NCBI GenBank assembly: GCA_013349295.1
Contig: DUZW01000003.1
Location: forward strand, 62,001-126,000
Origin: Deltaproteobacteria bacterium
GTDB taxonomy: Bacteria > Desulfobacterota > Desulfobulbia > Desulfobulbales > Desulfurivibrionaceae
DNA: 64,000 nt
Direction: 5' to 3'
How positions within the stretch are numbered: the stretch's first letter is position 1; each line of letters starts with the position of its first letter. The position numbers and the translations under genes are program-made. Positions 5,290-44,562 of this stretch are shown here, piece by piece. The notes beneath the pieces are model-generated. The model ran no database searches, was not told where the DNA came from, and saw only the letters and a program-made list of their open reading frames with translations.

Positions 5290-6102
5290 ATGCTCCGCCC
5301 ACCTTATACCTGCTACAGCCGCCTCTACACCTACCATCTCGACCTCAAGGATCTCCCGGACATCGACGACCCGGACCTGATCGGCACTTGGATCGAGGAC
5401 GAGACCGCCATTCTTTTTTTCCACCGGCCCAAGGAACGACTGGTCAGAAGTCTCTGCGAGGCATCAGGGGCCAAGGTCATCTATGAAGCGGATCTGGATT
5501 ATACGGATTGGGAGGCGGGCCGGGAAATCGGGACGTTCACGGTGGGCGGCCTGACCGTGGCGCCGGTCTGGGAAAAAACCACAGCGGACATCACCCTGGA
5601 TCCCAGCGTGATCTTCGGCAGCGGCTTTCATCCCTCCACCCGCCTCTGCTTGGAAGGGCTGCTCAAGTACACCGAGAGCCCGGAAATAGCCATCAATACC
5701 GCCCTTGACCTGGGCTGCGGCACCGGGTTGCTGGCCATTGCCGCAGCCAAACAAGGGGTAACCCGGATTACCGCCTGCGACAACAACCAACTGGCCTGCC
5801 AAGTGGCCCGCGCCAACTGTCAAAGCAACGGAGTACAGGACCGGGTTACCGTGCTGGAGGCCGACCTTCGCCGACAATGCCCGGACACCCGGGTAGACCT
5901 GGTGATGGCCAATCTGTATAAGGGCTTGATGCTTGAACTTTTCCAGAATCCAGATTTCTGGCAGGCAAAGCTCTATCTTCTCTCTGGCTTTATCTCCGGC
6001 ATGGAAGAGGATCTGCTCGCTGCCCTGCCGCAGAGCGGAATCACTTTCCTGGAAAGAAGGCGGAAGGACCGCTGGTGCAGCTGGGCACTGTTACGACAGT
6101 GA
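5290..6102 (+). CDS. prmA: Ribosomal protein L11 methyltransferase-like (PrmA family)
   Basis: 270 residues. The SAM-binding signature LDLGCGTGLLAIAAAKQG lies at about 139-156, preceded by the PrmA-typical FGSGFHPSTRLCLEGL segment that in PrmA reads FGTGxHPTT. Acidic loop and motif IV (DLVMANLYKGL) follow. PrmA trimethylates ribosomal protein L11; the N-terminal domain binds the substrate. The N-terminal part here is divergent and about 20-30 residues shorter than in E. coli, so a related protein methyltransferase is possible. No strong ribosome-binding site is seen at ATG 5290; translation may be coupled to the upstream gene. Confidence 0.78.
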   Translation: MLRPPYTCYSRLYTYHLDLKDLPDIDDPDLIGTWIEDETAILFFHRPKERLVRSLCEASGAKVIYEADLDYTDWEAGREIGTFTVGGLTVAPVWEKTTADITLDPSVIFGSGFHPSTRLCLEGLLKYTESPEIAINTALDLGCGTGLLAIAAAKQGVTRITACDNNQLACQVARANCQSNGVQDRVTVLEADLRRQCPDTRVDLVMANLYKGLMLELFQNPDFWQAKLYLLSGFISGMEEDLLAALPQSGITFLERRRKDRWCSWALLRQ

Positions 6103-6122
6103 ACAAAGAAATCCCCCGCGTT

Positions 6123-6440
6123 TCAGCGAGATTCTCTGCCGCGCCGCTGATACACCGGGCATTGCCTGCGTTTTTCCCCGGGACAGTCGGCAACCTCCCA
6201 GCACGGGGCATAGTGCAACAGCTTGCCCATGGAGGCAATGGTGATGCCGCCGTCATGGATCATACTGAAAAGACATCTGATCCAGGCAATATCATCGGCG
6301 CTGTAATACCGCCATTTTCCTTTGCGGCTTGGGGTGACAAGCCCCGCTTTTTCATAATTGCGCAAGGTTCGCGGGTGCAGATCAAGCATCTCGGCCGCCG
6401 CGGAAATCCGGTAGACCGAAGGGCAGCTTTGACATCGCAT
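6123..6440 (-). CDS. MerR-family regulator with cysteine-rich tail
   Basis: 105 residues. The N-terminal winged helix-turn-helix (about 8-75) has the MerR/HspR signature LRNYEKAGLVTPSRKGKWRY. The C-terminal 30 residues contain PCWEVADCPGEKRRQCPVY, a Cys-Trp...Cys...Cys pattern resembling the small CW-type cysteine motifs of delta-proteobacterial sensory proteins. No long dimerisation coiled coil or effector domain is present. Start ATG 6440 follows AAAGGA at good spacing. It converges with the PrmA-like gene (20 bases apart). A metal or redox response through the cysteines is an inference. Confidence 0.8.
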   Translation of the reverse strand: MRCQSCPSVYRISAAAEMLDLHPRTLRNYEKAGLVTPSRKGKWRYYSADDIAWIRCLFSMIHDGGITIASMGKLLHYAPCWEVADCPGEKRRQCPVYQRRGRESR

Positions 6441-6541
6441 GGAAAATCCTTTTTTTCTCTATAAATTTTGCTGAAATTGCGGACAGGTGTCAGCGTTCAA
6501 TCTTATTTCGATCATCCGGATGTGCAACAAACGCGTTCGGC

Positions 6542-8884
6542 TCAGTCACCCTTCACAGGAAAACTGAACGTTATCCTGGTATATTTTCCTTCTTCCCCGC
6601 TGATCAGCAAAAGGCCGCCATGCTCTTCGACAATCCCGCGGCAGACGGCAAGCATTTGCCCCCAGTTTCGGGACCGGGCATCCTTGCCGGATCCGAGTTT
6701 AGACAGGCTATCCGGCGGAATCACTGCTCCGTAATCCATGATAGTGATCTGAAATACCCGACCCTGAACGTTCTCCACGATGGTTTGCGTGGCAATGGCG
6801 ATTTTTTTCCGCGGGTCCCGGCCGGCAAACCTCTCGGCAAGAACGGTGCGGATGCTGCTGATAATGCCCAGAAAAACCTGTTGCATCTGCTGGGCATGCA
6901 CCGGAACCAACGGCGGCTCCGCCTCCAAATCGGTCTCAAGCTGGATGCCCTCGCTCTTTAAATGATAGCCGATGAGCAACAGGGCATCCTCCAGCACAAC
7001 AGCCACCGACAGGAACTCTCCCACGGCTGAGCCCTCTTCCTGTCCATACAGGATGAACTTGCGGACTATTTCCGCAATACGTTCACCAGCCCCAATGATC
7101 TTTACGAGCAACTCGTTCTGCGGTTGGCTCGGCCTCTTGAGCTGCTCCTCATCGGCCATCACCTGGGCATAGTTGATCAGTCCGTTACTGAGATCGCTCA
7201 CCTCATGCGAGACTCCGCCGGCCAGGGCCGCGATCATTTCCAACCGCATGCTTACATCCACTCCCCCAGCAGCCTCCTGCCCGACAAGGGGATAGCCGGC
7301 CAAAATCAGGCGCTCATGCTCCCCACCCATCTCCCGGTCCGGGACAACCCGGCACAAAAACCGACGGGCAGGGGTGCCCTCGGAAAGCACCAGTTCAACA
7401 CCCTCTTCCGAGCGTAGTTTTTCCAGCAGCACAACAGGAGCATCGCCGGCCATGACCGGCTGAGCCGGCCCCAAGAAATCACGCCAGGAGCGACCGGAAA
7501 CCTGGTCGCCGGCAAGGCCGGTCAGGTTTGCAAAAACCGTATTTGCCTCAATGATTCCCCCTGTCGGCGACAGGGTCAGCTGGATCACATGCAGGGCCTC
7601 AAAAAGTCGGCCATGCAAGTTCTCCCTGCTTGCCAAATGCTGCTGCCCCTCAATAGTGTAGAGGGCAAGACCGAGATCGCCTGCCAATCCTTCGAGCAGT
7701 TCCATCTCCTTGTCGTCAAAATCAGCGGGAGAAAAACCGTAGATGGAAAGCACGCCATACACTGTATTTTGCCAGATAATCGGCAGGGCGGCACAGGCCG
7801 CATGCCCATCGGCCAAGGCTGTTCCCTTAAGCAAACCCTTGGGAATCCCGGCCAGGATATCCATGCGAACAACCGGGGTCCTGGATCGCAAGGCCAGGGC
7901 CGCCGGATTCTGCTCCTGCCCCTTTTCCTCAGCTTCGGTAAGCAATAGAGCCATGCAGGCATCGCATTCATTATTGCTCATGGATGTCGCGCCGTCCGCC
8001 GCCACCGGCATGATATCCCCGGTTTCATCTTCTTGGCCTATCCAAACCAGGCAATACTCATGATTCGCAAGCAACGCCCGGCAAACCTCCTTAAACAGGG
8101 AATCCCGGGTTTTGCTCCTGGCGATTGCCAGCTGCGCCCCTTTAACCACCGAGGCCACCCGCTGGAACTTTGCCAGTCCCTGGGCCGTGATGTCGCGGGC
8201 CATCAAGAGGTCGTGGAAAGAATAGGCCAGCTCGGAAATCTCCCCGCTTCTCCCGGCAATGGAAAGCCCGGCCCGGTTACCGGAAGCAACTTCTTTCACC
8301 TGCTCAACAAGATCCAGCAACGGATCAATCAAACGTCTCTGAAAAAAAAGAAGCAGAATGATGATCAGGCTGACCACCATGGCCAGAGCGCCGATCACCA
8401 CATTCTGAAAACTGATCAGCTCTCGCTTGCCATGTTCGACCAGCACCCGGTCGAACAGCATGAGTCTCTCTCCCAGGGTGCGGATTTCCGTGTTGAGTTG
8501 CCGGAGGTATTCAGGCCTGACCGGTCCGGTGCTGATTTTTCTCACCAGGAGGACAAGACCGGGCAGATCAATGGCGTTGGCCAACGTAAGCTTGTAATGA
8601 TCGTCTATGAATCGATTTCTGATAACGGTTGCCAGATTGAGATTGAGTTCCTCCAACTCCGCACCCACCGAAGCCAGCCCGGCATACTGCCCTTCAAGAA
8701 GGTTTTCACTCACATGCTCCCGGATGACGGAAAACTGAAAAATAAGTTTTTCGGTCTGTCGGCTGACTTCGACATGATTTCTGTACAGTTGATACTGCCT
8801 GACACCCAGGCACAACAGAACCACAAGAATCACCGAGACCGTGACTGCGGTGGCATGGATTGTTTTCTTCAGAGGAAATGCCAT
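6542..8884 (-). CDS. Membrane histidine kinase-like protein with degenerate ATP-binding domain
   Basis: 780 residues: membrane helix (about 10-30), periplasmic sensor, second helix (about 163-183), HAMP, GAF (about 245-415), PAS (about 425-540), then a phosphoacceptor-type region ALAGGVSHEVSDLSNGLI in which the histidine is kept. The catalytic domain is eroded. The N-box reads VFLGIISSIRTVL where the kinase at 17154-19199 reads VFLNLLSNSRHAL, so both asparagines are lost. G1 reads DYGAVIPPD instead of DHGEGIPPD. The F-box is missing, and G2 reads GSGKDARSRNWGQ in place of a GTGLGLS motif. ATP binding is doubtful. It lies 68 bases downstream of the nrfD-like gene on the same strand and may belong to that operon. 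Confidence 0.85.
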   Translation of the reverse strand: MAFPLKKTIHATAVTVSVILVVLLCLGVRQYQLYRNHVEVSRQTEKLIFQFSVIREHVSENLLEGQYAGLASVGAELEELNLNLATVIRNRFIDDHYKLTLANAIDLPGLVLLVRKISTGPVRPEYLRQLNTEIRTLGERLMLFDRVLVEHGKRELISFQNVVIGALAMVVSLIIILLLFFQRRLIDPLLDLVEQVKEVASGNRAGLSIAGRSGEISELAYSFHDLLMARDITAQGLAKFQRVASVVKGAQLAIARSKTRDSLFKEVCRALLANHEYCLVWIGQEDETGDIMPVAADGATSMSNNECDACMALLLTEAEEKGQEQNPAALALRSRTPVVRMDILAGIPKGLLKGTALADGHAACAALPIIWQNTVYGVLSIYGFSPADFDDKEMELLEGLAGDLGLALYTIEGQQHLASRENLHGRLFEALHVIQLTLSPTGGIIEANTVFANLTGLAGDQVSGRSWRDFLGPAQPVMAGDAPVVLLEKLRSEEGVELVLSEGTPARRFLCRVVPDREMGGEHERLILAGYPLVGQEAAGGVDVSMRLEMIAALAGGVSHEVSDLSNGLINYAQVMADEEQLKRPSQPQNELLVKIIGAGERIAEIVRKFILYGQEEGSAVGEFLSVAVVLEDALLLIGYHLKSEGIQLETDLEAEPPLVPVHAQQMQQVFLGIISSIRTVLAERFAGRDPRKKIAIATQTIVENVQGRVFQITIMDYGAVIPPDSLSKLGSGKDARSRNWGQMLAVCRGIVEEHGGLLLISGEEGKYTRITFSFPVKGD

Positions 8885-8952: not shown

Positions 8953-10203
8953 TTACTTTTTTTCCTTCCAGGTGTAGAGGATCGGCATTCTTGCCAAAAC
9001 CGCACGATAAACAACGATATAGGTGGCATATACGGTGATGACGATTACCAGTTCACGCCAGTGGGGGAGTTCCTGATACAACTTCCAGTTGAAGGCAATG
9101 AGCGCCGTATTCAACCGGTTCAGGGCAAGACCGAATACCGCCATAAAGGCGCCCAAACGGGCCAGGGAAGCGTTGCCGTTCCGCACCGCCGTGGTGTAGA
9201 AAACCAGCGGCAAAATAACCCCCACCACCATCTCGAACAGGAACCAGGCGCCCCAACCGCTGAGCAGATACTGCCAGTTGTTGTCATGAGCGATCCCGAT
9301 AATCTTGATAACCAGATAGGTGATCAGGGCCAAGGAAGCTCCCTTGGCCAACCCCAGGGTCAGTTTACTCAGGTTGCCCAGATAGTTTTCATCACACCGC
9401 CAACGCATGAACCACTTGGTGAAAGTGCTCACCACAATGAGCATGGACAATCCGGCAAAAACCGCGGAAACGAAAAAATGGAGCCATTGGAAGGGCGAGG
9501 AATACCAAAGCGGATGCACCTTGCCCGGCGCATAGGTGAACAACGCCCCCAAAGCTCCCTGATGCAAGGTGGAAAGGATGATCCCGGCAATGGTCAGACC
9601 AAGCACGATACTCTTGATAAACTTCTTAGCCCGGGGAAAGCCCATCCACTCGCCAAAGGCGGGCACCAGCTCCGCCACCTGACAGCTAAGATAGGTGGCC
9701 ACATGCCAGGCCACGAGAAACAACACCGCCGCCGGGCCCAGGGATACGAACATGGGATAAATCAGACGCCAGGGCTGACCAAGATCCACCTGCAGAAACA
9801 TGACCGCGAACAGATATCCCAGAAGCCCGTTCAGCAGACCGAGCCGCTCGATGGGTTTGAAATCCTTGCGACCAAAAAGCTCCACGGTGGTTCCCATCAT
9901 GAAACCGGAAGCGGAGAGCGGCACCATGGTGAACAACCCCCAACCCAAAAACAACCCCCAGGGATAGTCATAGGAGGAATGGGTAACCCAACCCAGACCA
10001 AAAATAAAACGGCCGACCAGAATCGGCAGACCTACGGCATAGATGGCCCAGAGCACCCAGTTAAATGGGTTGCGGAGCTGAACCGCCATGTACTCCTTGG
10101 GGCTGAGCCCCAGCATGATCTTCTCTTTTACGGTCCACTCGCTCCCATCTTTCTTGAGATCGGAGACAACAGGGGCGAACCCTTGTGATTTTAAGCTATT
10201 CAT
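8953..10203 (-). CDS. NrfD/HybB-like quinone-interacting integral membrane subunit
   Basis: 416 residues with about ten membrane helices and the NrfD/polysulfide-reductase C pattern: a polar N-terminus, then FNWVLWAIYAVGLP, YPWGLFLGWGLF, FLQVDLGQPWR and SPFQWLHFFVSAVFAG. This family exchanges electrons with menaquinone at the inner membrane and always partners with a periplasmic four-cluster Fe-S protein, which is encoded 16 bases upstream, and often a multiheme cytochrome, encoded one gene further. The trio resembles the cytochrome c / HybA / HybB-type modules of sulfate reducers and Geobacter, but no catalytic molybdoprotein is present, so it probably moves electrons between the quinone pool and periplasmic cytochromes. 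Confidence 0.9.
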   Translation of the reverse strand: MNSLKSQGFAPVVSDLKKDGSEWTVKEKIMLGLSPKEYMAVQLRNPFNWVLWAIYAVGLPILVGRFIFGLGWVTHSSYDYPWGLFLGWGLFTMVPLSASGFMMGTTVELFGRKDFKPIERLGLLNGLLGYLFAVMFLQVDLGQPWRLIYPMFVSLGPAAVLFLVAWHVATYLSCQVAELVPAFGEWMGFPRAKKFIKSIVLGLTIAGIILSTLHQGALGALFTYAPGKVHPLWYSSPFQWLHFFVSAVFAGLSMLIVVSTFTKWFMRWRCDENYLGNLSKLTLGLAKGASLALITYLVIKIIGIAHDNNWQYLLSGWGAWFLFEMVVGVILPLVFYTTAVRNGNASLARLGAFMAVFGLALNRLNTALIAFNWKLYQELPHWRELVIVITVYATYIVVYRAVLARMPILYTWKEKK

Positions 10204-10219: not shown

Positions 10220-11146
10220 TCAGCTGTTATTCTGTTCGTTTTTCGCAGCGTCCTTCCGGTTGCTCAGCAAATGGAAACCGGTAAACAGCGCAGGCCAGAT
10301 GGTGAGAACCATCGGCACTATGGCAAGGAACTCTTTGACATAATTGATGATCGGCTGGGTTCCCAAATGGGTGTCATAGCCGATCTGATCAAAGGGCACA
10401 TCGGACATATACAGCCAGGCCGTTCCTCCGACCTCGGTTTCGCCATATACATGATCCACATATGCCTCCGGCTTCTCGCTGATCCGCTGATGGGCGAGCT
10501 TAAGAAGATCCTTACGCTTCCCAAAGGTCATGACTTCCTGGGGACAAGCCTCGACACAGGCCGGGGGCCGGCCGAATTTAAGGCGGGTTTCGTAGCACAT
10601 GATACATTTTTTCACCACAGGATTGGTGGCGCTTGAATAGCTGTAGGCCGGGATATAGAAAGGACAGGCCACCATACAGGTCCGGCAGCCGACGCACACG
10701 GTCGGGTCGTACATCACTGCGCCTTCCGGGGTCTTCCGGTAAGCATTGACAAAACATGAGGTCAGGCAAGCAGGTTCGTTACAATGATTACACTGCACCT
10801 TCCGAAAAAGCGGATGCTCCCTCCCCGGCACATCATATTTCTGTACCACGGTGTAAGCCTTTTCCGAAGTCCTTCTCGGCAGCCCTCCCTCGCGCCTTTC
10901 ATCAAACACGGAAGGATCGTCAAAGGGTTTGTCCGGCTCCGGCAACCCCTGCTCCTTGTTACAGGCAGCCTCGCAGGTCCGACAGCCTACACACTTGGTA
11001 AGATCAACAAGCACCCCCATACTGTCCGGGTAGCCGCCAAAGCTCTGCGTCCCGGCCAAGGCCTGTTTGCTTGTTCCGACGGCGGCGATGGCAGCGCCAC
11101 CGGCCAGCCCGCCTTTCAAGAAACTTCTGCGGTTTAACATTTTCAT
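10220..11146 (-). CDS. Tat-exported four-cluster ferredoxin subunit (HybA/DsrO-like)
   Basis: 308 residues. A twin-arginine signal NRRSFLKGG sits at the N-terminus, so the folded protein is exported. Four cysteine groups, each able to hold a [4Fe-4S] cluster, follow: CVGCRTCEAAC, CNHCNEPACLTSC, CVGCRTCMVAC and CIMC...CVEAC. A C-terminal hydrophobic helix (about 266-290, FLAIVPMVLTIWPALFTGF) anchors it, as in HybA. ATG 11146 follows AGAGGG. It would wire the quinone-interacting NrfD-like subunit to the cytochrome encoded just upstream. Confidence 0.92.
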   Translation of the reverse strand: MKMLNRRSFLKGGLAGGAAIAAVGTSKQALAGTQSFGGYPDSMGVLVDLTKCVGCRTCEAACNKEQGLPEPDKPFDDPSVFDERREGGLPRRTSEKAYTVVQKYDVPGREHPLFRKVQCNHCNEPACLTSCFVNAYRKTPEGAVMYDPTVCVGCRTCMVACPFYIPAYSYSSATNPVVKKCIMCYETRLKFGRPPACVEACPQEVMTFGKRKDLLKLAHQRISEKPEAYVDHVYGETEVGGTAWLYMSDVPFDQIGYDTHLGTQPIINYVKEFLAIVPMVLTIWPALFTGFHLLSNRKDAAKNEQNNS

Positions 11147-11976: not shown

Positions 11977-11994
11977 AAGCACATCCTGTGCCAA
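11977..11994 (-). promoter_or_regulatory. Candidate sigma-54 promoter for the cytochrome/Fe-S/NrfD operon
   Basis: On the minus strand the sequence TTGGCACAGGATGTGCTT fits the -24/-12 layout: GG, ten bases, GC. The -12 element is GTGC rather than TTGC. It lies 140 bp before the cytochrome start and about 250 bp from the palindrome at 12218-12265. The same string TTGGCACA-N3-TGTGC occurs at 14921-14940. It also contains a GCACA/TGTGC inverted repeat, so a separate operator is an alternative reading. Confidence 0.6.
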
Positions 11995-12153: not shown

Positions 12154-12197
12154 GATAAAAAAAATGCATCGCACTGATTTTTACCAGTGCGATGCAT
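12154..12197 (-). terminator. Rho-independent terminator after ftsH
   Basis: A 13-bp perfect stem (12164-12176 with 12185-12197), followed on the minus strand by an uninterrupted T-run (plus-strand A-run at 12156-12164), lies about 90 bases after the ftsH stop and closes that transcript. Confidence 0.85.
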
Positions 12198-12217
12198 GAT
12201 GCGACGCAGCAAAAAAA

Positions 12218-12265
12218 GTGTTGCATGCAACAGATGTGTTGCAACACATCTGTTGCATGCAACAC
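12218..12265. promoter_or_regulatory. Perfect 48-bp palindrome, candidate enhancer for a sigma-54 activator
   Basis: Positions 12218-12241 are the exact reverse complement of 12242-12265. It contains two outer TGTTGCATGCAACA sites and a central TGTTGCAACA. It starts within 25 bases of the ftsH stop and has no T-run, so it is not simply a terminator; a separate terminator follows. The same half-site TGTTGCA/TGCAACA forms the palindrome at 15206-15231. Placement about 250 bp upstream of a sigma-54-like promoter suits binding by the response regulator encoded at 15232-17016. The rest of the 450-bp gap (11838-12287) holds the terminator and promoter listed separately; no gene is seen. Confidence 0.75.
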
Positions 12266-12287: not shown

Positions 12288-14099
12288 CTACCCGGACAAA
12301 CCGGTAATCTCCTTGTTTTCTTCGGTCAATTTGTGACAGGTCACTATGATATCGACCTCTTCCGCATCAATGGTCTCATGGAGCAGCAAGACTTCGGCCA
12401 GCTTATGCAGAAAGGTTATTCTCCCTTCAAGCACAATGAGCGCGTCCTGATAGCACTCAGCAATAATCCTGCTGACTTCCTCATCAATTGCCTTGGCGAT
12501 CTCCTCACTGTAGGGGCGCTGGTTCGACCCGTTGCCGAGAAAACCCTTATCGGAGGTGACAAAGGCCCGTGGTCCAAGCCGTTCGCTCATCCCAAATTCA
12601 CAAACCATGCGGGTGGCGATATCCGTGGCAGCCTGCAAATCGTTGCTGGCCCCGGTGGAAAGTTCATTAAAAATAATTTCCTCCGCAGTTCTGCCGCCAA
12701 GCAGAATCGTAATCCTGTTTGTCAGATATTCCCTGGAATAAGCATGGCGATCATCAATGGGCACCTGTTGCATAACCCCCATGGCCTGGCCCCGGGGGAT
12801 GATGGTAATCTTGTGTACTGGATCGGTGTTGGGCAAAATCTTGGCAATAATCGCATGCCCGGCCTCATGGTACGCCGTGACCTTGCGCTGCTGTTCGCTG
12901 ATAACCAATCCCGTCCTTTCGGCCCCCATGAGAATCTTGTCCTTGGCATCCTCGATATCGCTGAGCTGAATTCCTGCCTTGCCCTTACGTGCCGCCATCA
13001 AGGCGGATTCATTGATGAGATTGGCGAGTTCGGCGCCGGTGAACCCCGGCGTGGACTGAGCCACAACCTGCAAATCAACGTCCGGATCCATGAGTACGTT
13101 TCGGGAATGCACCTCCAGTATCTTGCACCGCCCTTTGACATCGGGAGGCATGATGGTGACCTGGCGATCGAAGCGGCCGGGGCGCATCAAGGCAGGATCC
13201 AGGACATCCGGCCTGTTGGTCGCAGCAACGATGATAACGGTTTGATCACTTTGAAATCCATCCATCTCAACAAGCAAGGCATTGAGGGTCTGTTCCCGCT
13301 CATCCTGCCCGCCCATGGCCCCGGCAGCCCCACGGCTGCGGCCCACAGCGTCTATTTCATCAATAAACACAATACATGGCGCACTTTTCTTGGCCTGTGC
13401 AAACAGATCCCGCACCCGTGAGGCTCCGACCCCTACAAACATCTCGACAAAATCAGAACCGCTGATACTGTAAAAAGGAACACCTGCCTCACCGGCAATG
13501 GCCTTGGCCAACAAGGTTTTCCCTGTTCCAGGGGGGCCTTGCAACAAAACACCCTTGGGAATCTTGCCGCCGAGCCGCGTGATCTTCTTGGAATCCTTCA
13601 AGAAGTCCACTATCTCGACAAGCTCCTCCTTTGCCTCCGGAATGCCTGCAACGTCGGCAAAAGTTACCTGCTTGGCCTTGTCAGGATCCATGGCGACCTT
13701 TTTTTTGCCGAAACCGCTGCTCCCCCCCCCCTTCTGACCGCGAAGCATGAAAAACATCCAACCACCCATGAGCAGCATTACCGGGAAGGTTGTTGACCAG
13801 AAAGGCGACACCGCCCGAGCCGGCCCGGCTGAGATACGAACATTCTTGCTCTCAAGTCTGGGGAGCAGTTGCTGCACATCCGGGGCATAGGTCAAGAAGG
13901 ATTGGCCATAAATGTCAGTGCCGATGATCTCCTGTCCCTGTATTCGCACCGCCTGTATCTCTTTATTTTCCAGCTTGGTCAGGAAAGCGGAATATTCAAG
14001 CTTGGGCTGTTGGCTTTCAACGATCCAGACGTTGTAAACAACCACAGCCAGAGTTGCCACCAACATGAGCAATAGATAATTTCGCACGTATTTGGCCAC
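12288..14099 (-). CDS. ftsH: ATP-dependent zinc metalloprotease FtsH
   Basis: 603 residues. Two membrane helices (about 5-25 and 103-123) flank a periplasmic domain; then come the AAA+ module with Walker A GPPGTGKT, Walker [12 protein letters not shown], and the second region of homology ending in RPGRFDR. The M41 protease zinc site HEAGHA follows. FtsH degrades misfolded and short-lived membrane proteins. The GTG start at 14099 follows AGGAGGA at five bases; a longer frame from 14159 has no such signal. It sits alone between two regulated membrane/redox units with its own terminator on each side, and TGTTGCA half-sites occur in its upstream region. Confidence 0.95.
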
Positions 14100-14145
14100 A
14101 ATTTTCCTCCTGGGCAGAATGAATGCAATGCAAAGTGAAAGCGCT

Positions 14146-14168
14146 GTGCAACAGGACATGGTGCAACA
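14146..14168 (-). promoter_or_regulatory. Direct TGTTGCAC half-sites upstream of ftsH
   Basis: On the minus strand TGTTGCAC occurs twice with a 15-bp period (14146-14153 and 14161-14168), 47-70 bp before the ftsH start. The same half-site builds the palindromes at 12218-12265 and 15206-15231. This suggests, without proof, that ftsH responds to the same regulator. Confidence 0.4.
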
Positions 14169-14261: not shown

Positions 14262-14570
14262 TCAGTGCTGGCTGGGAACCGTAACCTTCGGAGTGTTGAC
14301 ATACTTGAAAAAGACCGGGAAGGCGCCGAAGAAGGCAACACAGACCAGGTACTCAACGCCTTTGATGTGGGTGTAAAAATCCACCAAGGTGGCCTGCTCA
14401 CCGATCAGGCCGACAGCAACCATGTACTGTCTAACCACTTCTCCCAAGCCTGCCTTGGAGAGACTGAAGCTCAGCGCGGCAAACGCCCACAATCCTACTG
14501 CCGCACCGATACCGCCGACTACCGCCATGAAAACCCCTGCGCCCTTCTTTTCCGTCATTGACTTTGCCAT
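14262..14570 (-). CDS. Small membrane protein of unknown function
   Basis: 102 residues with two predicted membrane helices (about 10-36 and 70-90). The ATG at 14570 is supported by AAGGGGA seven bases upstream. The segment GLWAFAALSFSLSKAGL then R...AVGL parallels GAWGIACLIGGMSKMGG then R...AVTG in the upstream small protein, so the two appear to be related. Not recognised as a known family. Second gene of a two-gene unit behind a candidate sigma-54 promoter and ended by a strong terminator. Its role could be as small subunits of, or adaptors for, the cytochrome/NrfD complex regulated by the same elements; that is inference from context only. Confidence 0.8.
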   Translation of the reverse strand: MAKSMTEKKGAGVFMAVVGGIGAAVGLWAFAALSFSLSKAGLGEVVRQYMVAVGLIGEQATLVDFYTHIKGVEYLVCVAFFGAFPVFFKYVNTPKVTVPSQH

Positions 14571-14639
14571 GATATTTCCCCTTATTAAATTCGGTTTCTT
14601 TATGATCACGTTATGATCGCAACCTTATTTTTCGCCTGT

Positions 14640-14920: not shown

Positions 14921-14940
14921 CATTGCACAGGGTGTGCCAA
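14921..14940 (-). promoter_or_regulatory. Candidate sigma-54 promoter for the two small membrane-protein genes
   Basis: On the minus strand TTGGCACACCCTGTGCAATG has GG, ten bases, GC, as required for -24/-12, with GTGC at -12. It lies 66 bp before the 14855 start and about 290 bp from the palindrome at 15206-15231. It matches the element at 11977-11994 in TTGGCACA-N3-TGTGC. Confidence 0.6.
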
Positions 14941-15144: not shown

Positions 15145-15189
15145 GAAAAACAAAAAGTGTGGCGCAGCGGATTGTGGCGCCACACTTTT
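15145..15189 (-). terminator. Rho-independent terminator after the response-regulator operon
   Basis: A 13-bp stem (15153-15165 with 15177-15189), 11-base loop; on the minus strand it is followed by TTTTT-G-TTTTT. It lies about 40 bases after the response-regulator stop. The remainder of the 376-bp gap (14856-15231) holds the palindrome and promoter listed separately; no gene is seen. Confidence 0.82.
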
Positions 15190-15205
15190 ACTGTTGCATG
15201 TGTGG

Positions 15206-15231
15206 CAGAGTGTTGCATGTGCAACACTCTG
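15206..15231. promoter_or_regulatory. TGTTGCA palindrome, candidate enhancer
   Basis: 12-bp perfect arms (15206-15217 and 15220-15231) around a two-base spacer, centred on TGTTGCA-TG-TGCAACA. A further half-site TGTTGCATG lies at 15192-15200. It abuts the response-regulator stop, lacks a T-run of its own, and is followed by a true terminator. It shares its half-site with the 48-bp palindrome at 12218-12265, each 250-290 bp upstream of a sigma-54-like promoter. Confidence 0.7.
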
Positions 15232-17016
15232 CTATTCCAGTCCGTATGCCTTCATCTTACGGTACAGGGTGCTGCGGTCAATACCGAGCAACCGGGCAGC
15301 CTTGGCCTTGTTGCCGTCGGTCTGGGCGATAACACTGACGATATGCGCTTCCTCGTTTTCCCGCGAGACAGGGGCGAAACCTCCAGCCTCGGCGGAAAAC
15401 ACGGTTTCAGTTCCGGCACCATTTGCTGATGCAGCGACAACACGGTCACCACTGCGCACCTCCTCCGGAAGATTAGCGGTTGTGATCGTGTCGTCCGTAC
15501 ACAACACGCAGGCCCGTTCCACAACATGCTCCAACTCCCGTACATTTCCGGGCCAGCGGTAGGCGGTTAGCAACTGCAAAGCCTGATCGGAAATCCCGGT
15601 GATGTTCTTGTTCAGTCGTTTGCTGAAACGGGCGAGGAACAACTCCACCAGGATGGGCAGATCCCCCTGCCGGTCCCGCAACGGGGGCAGACTGATATCT
15701 ATCACCCGCAGCCGGTAGTAAAGATCCTCTCTGAATTCACCCCGCTGAACCTTCTGTTTCAGGTCGGCATTGGTGGCCGCCACCACCCGGACATCCACAG
15801 TAACCGGCCTGTCCTCGCCAACCGGGTAAAAGGTGCGCTCTTGGAGAAAACGCAATAAGCGCAGCTGCATGAGCGGCGAGATGTCGCCTATCTCATCGAG
15901 AAACAGTGTGCCTCCGTCCGCTTGAAGAATCCGCCCTTCCCGGTTGCGATCCGCTCCGGTGAAGGCCCCCTTCTTATGACCGAACAGCTCACTTTCCATG
16001 AGATTTTCCGGAATGGAAGTACAGTCGAATTTCACCAGAGGCATTTCCCGGCGCGGGCTTTCCGCATGCAGGGCTTCGGCCACCAACTCCTTGCCGGTTC
16101 CGGATTCTCCGGTGATCAGAACCGAGGTGTCAACCTGGCCAACGTTTTCGATGAGGGTGTACACCGTCTGCATGGCCCGACTCACTCCGGCCAGCCGGTG
16201 AAAATAGGTACGCTTACCCCGCTTTTCCAAGTCTTCCAGCCGACTCACATCCCGGAACACCAGCACCACCCCGAGGAAGCCCTTATCCTGTTGACTTTCC
16301 AAGGGGGATGCGCTGATCCGGAAAACAACATGGCCGCCTGTCTCCAGATTGACCTCGATACGATGCTCACTCACCGCTTCCTGGCATTCCAGGACCTTCT
16401 GCACGTCTGCGGCAAACACGGCAAAGGAATCGGCCACATCCTCAAGATTAGTGCCGATGGCAAGGCCGGGCATGTGCGTTGCCGCCCAGTTCTTCGCCTG
16501 ATCATTCATCTGCACCACCCGCAAATCATGATCAACGGTGACAATCATGTCCCGAACGCTACGAAAGATTGTTTCGAGGTATTGCTGGTAGCGCTCCTTT
16601 TCAACAGTCAACCTCTCCTTCTCCTTCCAGAGGGAGTACTGCTGCAAGGCCATGCGCGCGGTGCGCAGCAGATCGGCCTTTTTCACCGGTTTAGCCAGGT
16701 AATCAAAAGCCCCCAACCGCACCGCCTCGGAAGCGGTGTTGATATTGGGATAGCCGGTCACCATGACCATCGGACACTCCAGGCCCAACTCCCGAACCCG
16801 CAGCAAATCGATGCCCGAGGCCCCCTCCATGACGATATCACTGATAATCAGATCAAAAGTCTGCTGCTCGATGAGCCCCATGGCTTCCTCAAAGGTCGAG
16901 GCGGTCACCACCGGCCCGTATCCTTCCCGGCCCAGGAACATCTGAAAGGTCAAGCGCAGGCTTTCCTCATCATCGACCACCAGAATGGAGGTCTCGGATT
17001 TTTCCAGATCTATCAT
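15232..17016 (-). CDS. Sigma-54-dependent response regulator (REC-PAS-AAA+-Fis)
   Basis: 594 residues. Receiver domain (about 9-125) with phosphoacceptor Asp in DLIISDIVMEG and the conserved KP pair; a PAS domain (about 150-260); AAA+ activator domain with GESGTGKE, an intact GAFTGA sigma-54 loop and LDEIGD; and a C-terminal Fis-type helix-turn-helix (KAARLLGIDRSTLYRKM). The ATG at 17016 is chosen for its AGGGGA site; the frame extends to 17070. The cognate kinase is almost certainly the next gene upstream. It is the last gene of the operon that starts with the DsrE-like gene. Palindromes on TGTTGCA immediately downstream, and again at 12218, are plausible binding sites. Confidence 0.93.
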   Translation of the reverse strand: MIDLEKSETSILVVDDEESLRLTFQMFLGREGYGPVVTASTFEEAMGLIEQQTFDLIISDIVMEGASGIDLLRVRELGLECPMVMVTGYPNINTASEAVRLGAFDYLAKPVKKADLLRTARMALQQYSLWKEKERLTVEKERYQQYLETIFRSVRDMIVTVDHDLRVVQMNDQAKNWAATHMPGLAIGTNLEDVADSFAVFAADVQKVLECQEAVSEHRIEVNLETGGHVVFRISASPLESQQDKGFLGVVLVFRDVSRLEDLEKRGKRTYFHRLAGVSRAMQTVYTLIENVGQVDTSVLITGESGTGKELVAEALHAESPRREMPLVKFDCTSIPENLMESELFGHKKGAFTGADRNREGRILQADGGTLFLDEIGDISPLMQLRLLRFLQERTFYPVGEDRPVTVDVRVVAATNADLKQKVQRGEFREDLYYRLRVIDISLPPLRDRQGDLPILVELFLARFSKRLNKNITGISDQALQLLTAYRWPGNVRELEHVVERACVLCTDDTITTANLPEEVRSGDRVVAASANGAGTETVFSAEAGGFAPVSRENEEAHIVSVIAQTDGNKAKAARLLGIDRSTLYRKMKAYGLE

Positions 17017-17153
17017 TGCTGTTCCCCTGTTTGCCTTATGAATAATAGTTGCAACTATCCAGCAGAGCACATCTGCGACACTGCCGAACAGTTACATTTC
17101 CTGGTTTTTTTTGATCCAATCCCGGCATTACGCCGAACAGTCAGCAACAATCT

Positions 17154-44507: not shown

Positions 44508-44531
44508 AAAATATCCGCAGGACAAAAAAAA

Positions 44532-44562
44532 GGGTGTCAACCGAAACGGTTGACACCCTTTT
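44532..44562. terminator. Bidirectional rho-independent terminator
   Basis: A 12-bp perfect stem (44532-44543 with 44547-44558), three-base loop and TTTT tail; an A-run on the left gives a T-run on the other strand. It closes the sulfatase-fold gene and the opposing tRNA-Pro transcript. Confidence 0.9.

Follow-up and report, generated by a model that had tools for sequence, protein, structure and literature searches.

The gap between ftsH and a multihaem cytochrome c gene in the window (the whole 64,000-nucleotide stretch of DNA analysed here) contains a 48-bp palindrome, and the question is what reads it: a protein bound to the duplex, the RNA transcribed through it, or both. We consider it, with a probability of about 0.8, a candidate compound enhancer (UAS) of the regulator encoded at 15232-17070, which probably serves also as an RNA hairpin at the 3' end of ftsH. 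Judging by the sequence comparisons below, it is very probably a landing site of the neighbouring activator protein in this sulfate-reducer-type bacterium.

The palindrome and its gene neighbourhood

The sequence of the palindrome is GTGTTGCATGCAACAGATGTGTTGCAACACATCTGTTGCATGCAACAC, identical to its own reverse complement, with two outer sites and a centre, just as the initial annotation had described it. The palindrome is real and far beyond chance: the runner-up within the window has 20 bp, and in 30 first-order Markov copies (64 kb each) the longest palindrome does not exceed 22 bp. Rfam yields no match above the gathering score for the palindrome, with sub-threshold hairpin matches only, e.g. 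to microRNA models. Two further long perfect hairpins of the window, at 1336-1373 and 44528-44562 (arms of 18 and 16 bp, respectively), are terminator-like.

All nearby genes are on the minus strand (Table 1), their starts being those given by ORF calling. Read in this direction, the ftsH stop codon is followed after 22 nt by the palindrome. The best NCBIfam matches of two downstream genes are HmcB and HmcC, resembling the Hmc transmembrane redox complex; unlike in Hmc, both genes score below the curated cut-offs, and the cytochrome has 177 aa and is not the 16-haem HmcA. The small genes m1 and m2 sit together between the regulator gene and ftsH in many relatives.

Table 1. Features of the palindrome locus, listed with the positions and strand in the window.
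Feature	Positions	Strand	Remarks
Perfect 48-bp palindrome, three-dyad array (UAS2), 3' of ftsH	12218..12265	-	seen in the sequence; geometry conserved
Outer dyad D1, TGTTGCATGCAACA, first on the coding strand	12251..12264	.	
Outer dyad D2, TGTTGCATGCAACA, 32 bp from D1	12219..12232	.	
Central dyad TGTTGCAACA, two half-sites with a common GC	12237..12246	.	TG..GC..CA invariant in 22 arrays
T7 tract abutting the palindrome on the coding strand	12211..12217	-	sense-side T bias in 22/22 relatives
Second terminator-like hairpin (15 pairs), then T8	12164..12197	-	
Sigma-54 promoter P2, TGGCACAGGATGTGCT (-24/-12)	11978..11993	-	near-invariant in the genus
Sigma-54 promoter P1, TGGCACACCCTGTGCA	14924..14939	-	
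Second array UAS1, seven TGTNGC/GCNACA half-sites, two hairpins, 3' of the regulator gene	15153..15232	-	
NtrC-family response regulator (receiver, PAS, AAA+ with GAFTGA, HTH_8)	15232..17070	-	proposed binder
Small protein m1, first gene after P1	14640..14855	-	no Pfam or NCBIfam match
Small protein m2, conserved beside m1	14262..14609	-	no Pfam or NCBIfam match
ftsH (AAA+/M41 protease)	12288..14159	-	
Multihaem cytochrome c (c3/c7-like), first gene after P2	11304..11837	-	
HmcB-like Tat-exported iron-sulfur protein	10220..11146	-	405.7 bits vs curated cut-off 420
HmcC/NrfD-like membrane protein	8953..10203	-	350.7 bits vs curated cut-off 550
Sensor histidine kinase (GAF, PAS, HATPase)	6542..8884	-	likely partner

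Arrays and sigma-54 promoters in related genomes

The palindrome has the features of a sigma-54 UAS. It lies upstream of a -24/-12 promoter of the GG-N10-GC type at a looping distance (about 225 bp from the array edge to P2, conserved in most of the genus), its repeated dyad half-sites are conserved together with the promoter across species, and the genome encodes both RpoN and a candidate cognate activator with an AAA+ domain carrying GAFTGA and an HTH.

The compared genomes, many of which are draft metagenome assemblies, contain the same kind of array in the gap between ftsH and the cytochrome gene in the relatives examined, and the gene order is common to named Desulfurivibrio, Desulfobulbaceae and Candidatus Desulfobia assemblies. 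The order-wide form of the array is TGTNGC-AT-GCNACA, 4 bp, TGTNGCNACA, 4 bp, TGTNGC-AT-GCNACA, the two outer dyads being spaced by 32 bp. Exactly this spacing is seen just past ftsH in almost every genus member that has the locus. A search of 257 genomes of the order with the exact-geometry pattern gives matches in 21, compared to none for the reversed pattern used as a control. The array is thus well conserved in close relatives, and the poor conservation that had been named as evidence against a binding site is not seen. In 11 of 13 genomes of the genus, the near-invariant, canonical sigma-54 box TTGGCACAGGATGTGCTTA follows the first dyad at a distance of 269-276 bp, and the remaining two have longer gaps, 448 and 557 bp.

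The middle site TG..GC..CA is kept in all 22 arrays without covariation, as expected of a DNA site. Half-site spacing varies (half-sites sharing 2 bp, or separated by 0, 2 or 4 bp), which is unusual for one dimer geometry and speaks against the enhancer reading, and helical phasing of the half-sites is suggestive only (Rayleigh p 0.11 and 0.045).

The same half-sites, together with a sigma-54 box of its own, are present in the gap between the regulator gene and m1. This second array overlaps the stop codon of the regulator gene, and its last half-site pair is framed by AAAAG...CTTTT in most relatives examined.

Gene order varies across lineages, which provides a natural test of array-promoter pairing. 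Two gaps per cluster were scored, with an array defined as at least 4 half-sites within 90 bp and promoters scanned for by a simple consensus: 40 gaps have both, 13 neither, 11 only a promoter without a dense array, and 4 only an array (Fisher p 8e-5), while control gaps between the cytochrome and hmcB genes have neither array nor promoter in 45 of 45 cases. In distant families, the array is present where the sigma-54 promoter is present and absent where there is none. In particular, in G145, G087, G197 and G058 the sole promoter follows the regulator gene (that of G197 was missed by the simple scan), and half-sites are found there, with none between ftsH and the cytochrome gene. Conversely, in G026, G232, G240, G242 and G233 the only promoter precedes the cytochrome gene, and the array accompanies it, being absent 3' of the regulator gene. 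At the arrays of G030 and G049 the simple scan shows no promoter; these two cases, like the 11 promoters without a dense array, count against the enhancer reading. The joint loss of regulator and array in G036 was dropped as evidence, as an orthologue of the regulator is found elsewhere in it with its own half-site array.

The conserved array with its promoter, the half-sites at both promoters and the family-wide co-occurrence point to an enhancer of the adjacent regulator. The binding-site cluster for a response regulator, proposed in the initial annotation, is strongly supported by the conserved half-sites, the 32-bp spacing and the downstream sigma-54 promoter, and gains further from the half-sites flanking P1 and from arrays tracking sigma-54 promoters across families. 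For the cluster of Hmc-like redox genes and FtsH, which recurs across the order, this assigns candidates for one binding motif, two promoters and one regulator.

Several relatives show local rearrangements. About 280 extra bases separate the array from the promoter in L015/L048 (G016), with short inverted repeats TCCCCCTTTGTTAAAGGGGGA, resembling a small insertion element. In L040 (G004, 5467-7730), the sigma-54 box occurs in a further, identical copy between m1 and m2, accompanied by an additional TGTTGC...GCGACA dyad, as though the promoter region had been duplicated. L175 (G048) has no FtsH match between m2 and the cytochrome gene and has several extra arrays; in the same genome (C36, 36157-37326) two arrays with the exact 32-bp geometry, separated by about 1.1 kb, are found close to an m2-like match.

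Pairing across the array and T-tracts on the coding strand

Complementarity of the N bases in the half-sites spans the entire 46-bp array. In 22 arrays of fixed geometry, 40 of 44 pairs (position 4 with 43, and 11 with 36) are complementary, compared to 20.2 in shuffles, and inside single dyads there is no excess in these 22 arrays (10/22 and 8/22 vs approximately 9 expected). Similarly, the global structure has a covariation score of 0.187, compared to 0.081 in shuffled data and at most 0.055 with slid partners; the local dyads score 0.057 vs 0.051. Simulation of independent columns on the HmcB+HmcC protein tree, with rates fitted coarsely, yields p 0.0003 and 0.0007 for the 4-43 and 11-36 pairs; pairs of the linkers and the middle are not significant.

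The symmetry is not restricted to these positions. The palindromes of G224, G225 and G226 are perfect but differ in their letters, the arms of G222, G050, G087 and G197 match perfectly over 16-22 bp, and in 20 of 26 arrays, other arrangements included, the inverted repeat extends further than expected from half-site symmetry (p at most 0.05 each). Exceptions include the arrays of G120 and G233 and the post-regulator arrays of G158 and G032. Palindromy of the arms reaches into non-motif sequence, e.g. CACACCACAGAACC in G087, and G050 has a matching extra base in both arms. Isolated N positions between paired bases are matched in 91% of cases, compared to 45-82% at clustered mismatches of the linkers and the middle; the inner linkers, nearest to the fold-back, are the least symmetric part.

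As judged from these alignments, palindromy of the array as a whole is itself conserved with changed letters, a feature that independent protein dimers would not require. The array is also a clear case of bases outside the site consensus covarying across a whole candidate enhancer. The paired N bases may reflect either a selected hairpin (a terminator or a 3' end) or template switching, and both may act.

The run AAAAAAA next to the palindrome reads as T7 on the minus strand, and thus the palindrome scores as a terminator-like hairpin. The statement of the initial annotation that no T-run follows is therefore wrong on this strand, that of all nearby genes, while the separate terminator that it placed beyond the palindrome is confirmed as a terminator-like hairpin with T8. 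A stable stem-loop abutting a U-tract 3' of a gene, i.e. the arrangement of an intrinsic terminator, is formed by the palindrome and T7.

In relatives, the stem is kept by covariation. Of the 8 bases just past the array, a mean of 4.5 are T on the coding side and 1.9 on the opposite side, the coding side being richer in T in all 22 cases, which is what an RNA terminator or 3' end would show. The tract is weak in several families (G218, G216, G225 and the post-regulator arrays of G087 and G058), being little developed or absent at the arrays of G218, G087 and G058; hence, termination is possibly limited to some lineages. The location of the array in the 3' terminal part of the ftsH mRNA, its long inverted repeat and the T7 tract make an RNA hairpin there probable, and the second terminator-like hairpin already present in the window counts against this part of the interpretation.

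Possible mechanism, alternatives and related systems

Sequence, conservation, co-occurrence with sigma-54 promoters and covariation are established directly. Binding of the regulator, activation and termination are what we infer, in the following way. The phosphorylated regulator would bind the TGTNGC/GCNACA half-sites and assemble into an AAA+ oligomer, the intervening approximately 225 bp would be looped to P2, and the operon of the cytochrome c, HmcB-like, HmcC-like and histidine kinase genes would be switched on. The second array with P1 would act in the same way on m1-m2-ftsH. In the ftsH transcript, the array would form an RNA hairpin, helping to end or to protect the message. It is conceivable, though less likely than not, that such DNA has two readers, the activator recognizing its half-sites in duplex form and the RNA of the upstream gene folding it into a hairpin (or the DNA itself extruding a cruciform). 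This would be a class of sigma-54 enhancers maintained as long inverted repeats, in which pairing outside the half-site consensus is kept by selection.

A serious competitor, to which we assign somewhat less than an even chance, is an enhancer whose whole-array palindromy has no function: its inverted half-sites make up a quasi-palindrome, in which template switching at replication repeatedly copies arm onto arm and mends isolated mismatches. Template switching, by which an arm can be corrected to match its partner, has been proposed to maintain hairpins (PMC8794818). The arms extending beyond the motif in most arrays, even those without a T-tract and in the non-motif sequence of G087, agree with it, as do the extra base matched in both arms of G050 and the better matching of isolated than of clustered positions, which arm-to-arm correction predicts. 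Still, the sense-side T bias suggests that in some lineages the element acts in the RNA, and the least symmetric inner linkers are nearest to the fold-back. The array can be used to test whether selection for a hairpin or template switching alone homogenises palindromic regulatory DNA. It is quite unlikely that the element is merely the intrinsic terminator of the ftsH operon, with its likeness to binding sites a by-product of the palindromic stem: the perfect stem followed by T7, the T content in relatives and the short distance to the stop codon would fit, but the half-sites recur at the other sigma-54 promoter, there are no arrays between ftsH and the cytochrome gene where the promoter is absent there, the middle site is conserved in letters and not in pairing, and several long-armed arrays (G087, G058) have no T-tract.

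Binding by another protein, e.g. a repressor of the Hmc-like operon, is unlikely. Fis-type recognition helices are similar among NtrC-family proteins, which leaves room for such a binder, but the arrays adjoin sigma-54 promoters, orthologues of the regulator occupy the same locus across families with a nearly unchanged recognition helix (NKAKAARLLGIDRSTLYRK), and in most of them half-sites are found 3' of the regulator gene. Finally, a long palindrome in an intergenic gap could be a REP- or MITE-like dispersed repeat that landed there by chance, but this is extremely improbable: in the 2.9-Mb genome TGTTGCATGCAACA is confined to the two outer sites of the palindrome, the whole-genome count of one locus ruling out a mobile or dispersed repeat, and the position is orthologous across many genera.

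For the candidate enhancer, the closest described kind is the sigma-54 enhancer of NtrC-family regulators, as in passages on the Desulfovibrio vulgaris sigma-54 regulome (Kazakov et al. 2015, PMC4641369). According to these passages, TGT...ACA dyad half-sites there also lie upstream of a -24/-12 promoter adjoining the regulator gene, and the Ohc redox operon (DVU3142) is a parallel case. The TGT and ACA groups are separated there by 9, 11 or 12 bp, compared to 8 in our outer dyads, and the sites are mostly within 100 nt of the promoter, compared to about 225; whole-array palindromy is a feature of the present locus of which the regulome passages contain no description. The string GCAACA/TGTTGC is absent from the main texts of PMC4641369 and of the earlier response-regulator mapping (PMC3333781), and in a literature search for the motif none of the papers listed contained the longer strings, the matches listed for TGTTGCAACA being unrelated.

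For one motif possibly acting at two levels, the closest parallel is provided by the intrinsic terminators that Neisseria and Pasteurellaceae build from DNA uptake sequences (PMC1852404). There, too, a motif recognized at the DNA level occurs as an inverted pair and doubles as a terminator stem, but it is an abundant uptake signal, whereas here it is a local candidate enhancer site, restricted to this locus.

Similar-looking sequences were also observed in other lineages. The Bacillaceae L063, L072, L060 and L069 (Siminovitchia, Lentibacillus, Ornithinibacillus) have in common TGTGGCAAGCAACAAAAA...TTTTTGTTGCTTGCCACA or a variant of it, a long inverted repeat that looks unrelated. In Geomonas, TGTGGCATGCCACA-type pairs 32 bp apart occur in L059 (4164-4209), which has no match to the cluster, and in L071 (5757-5802), which has only a weak (33%) match to the regulator; these are possibly sites of a related regulator.
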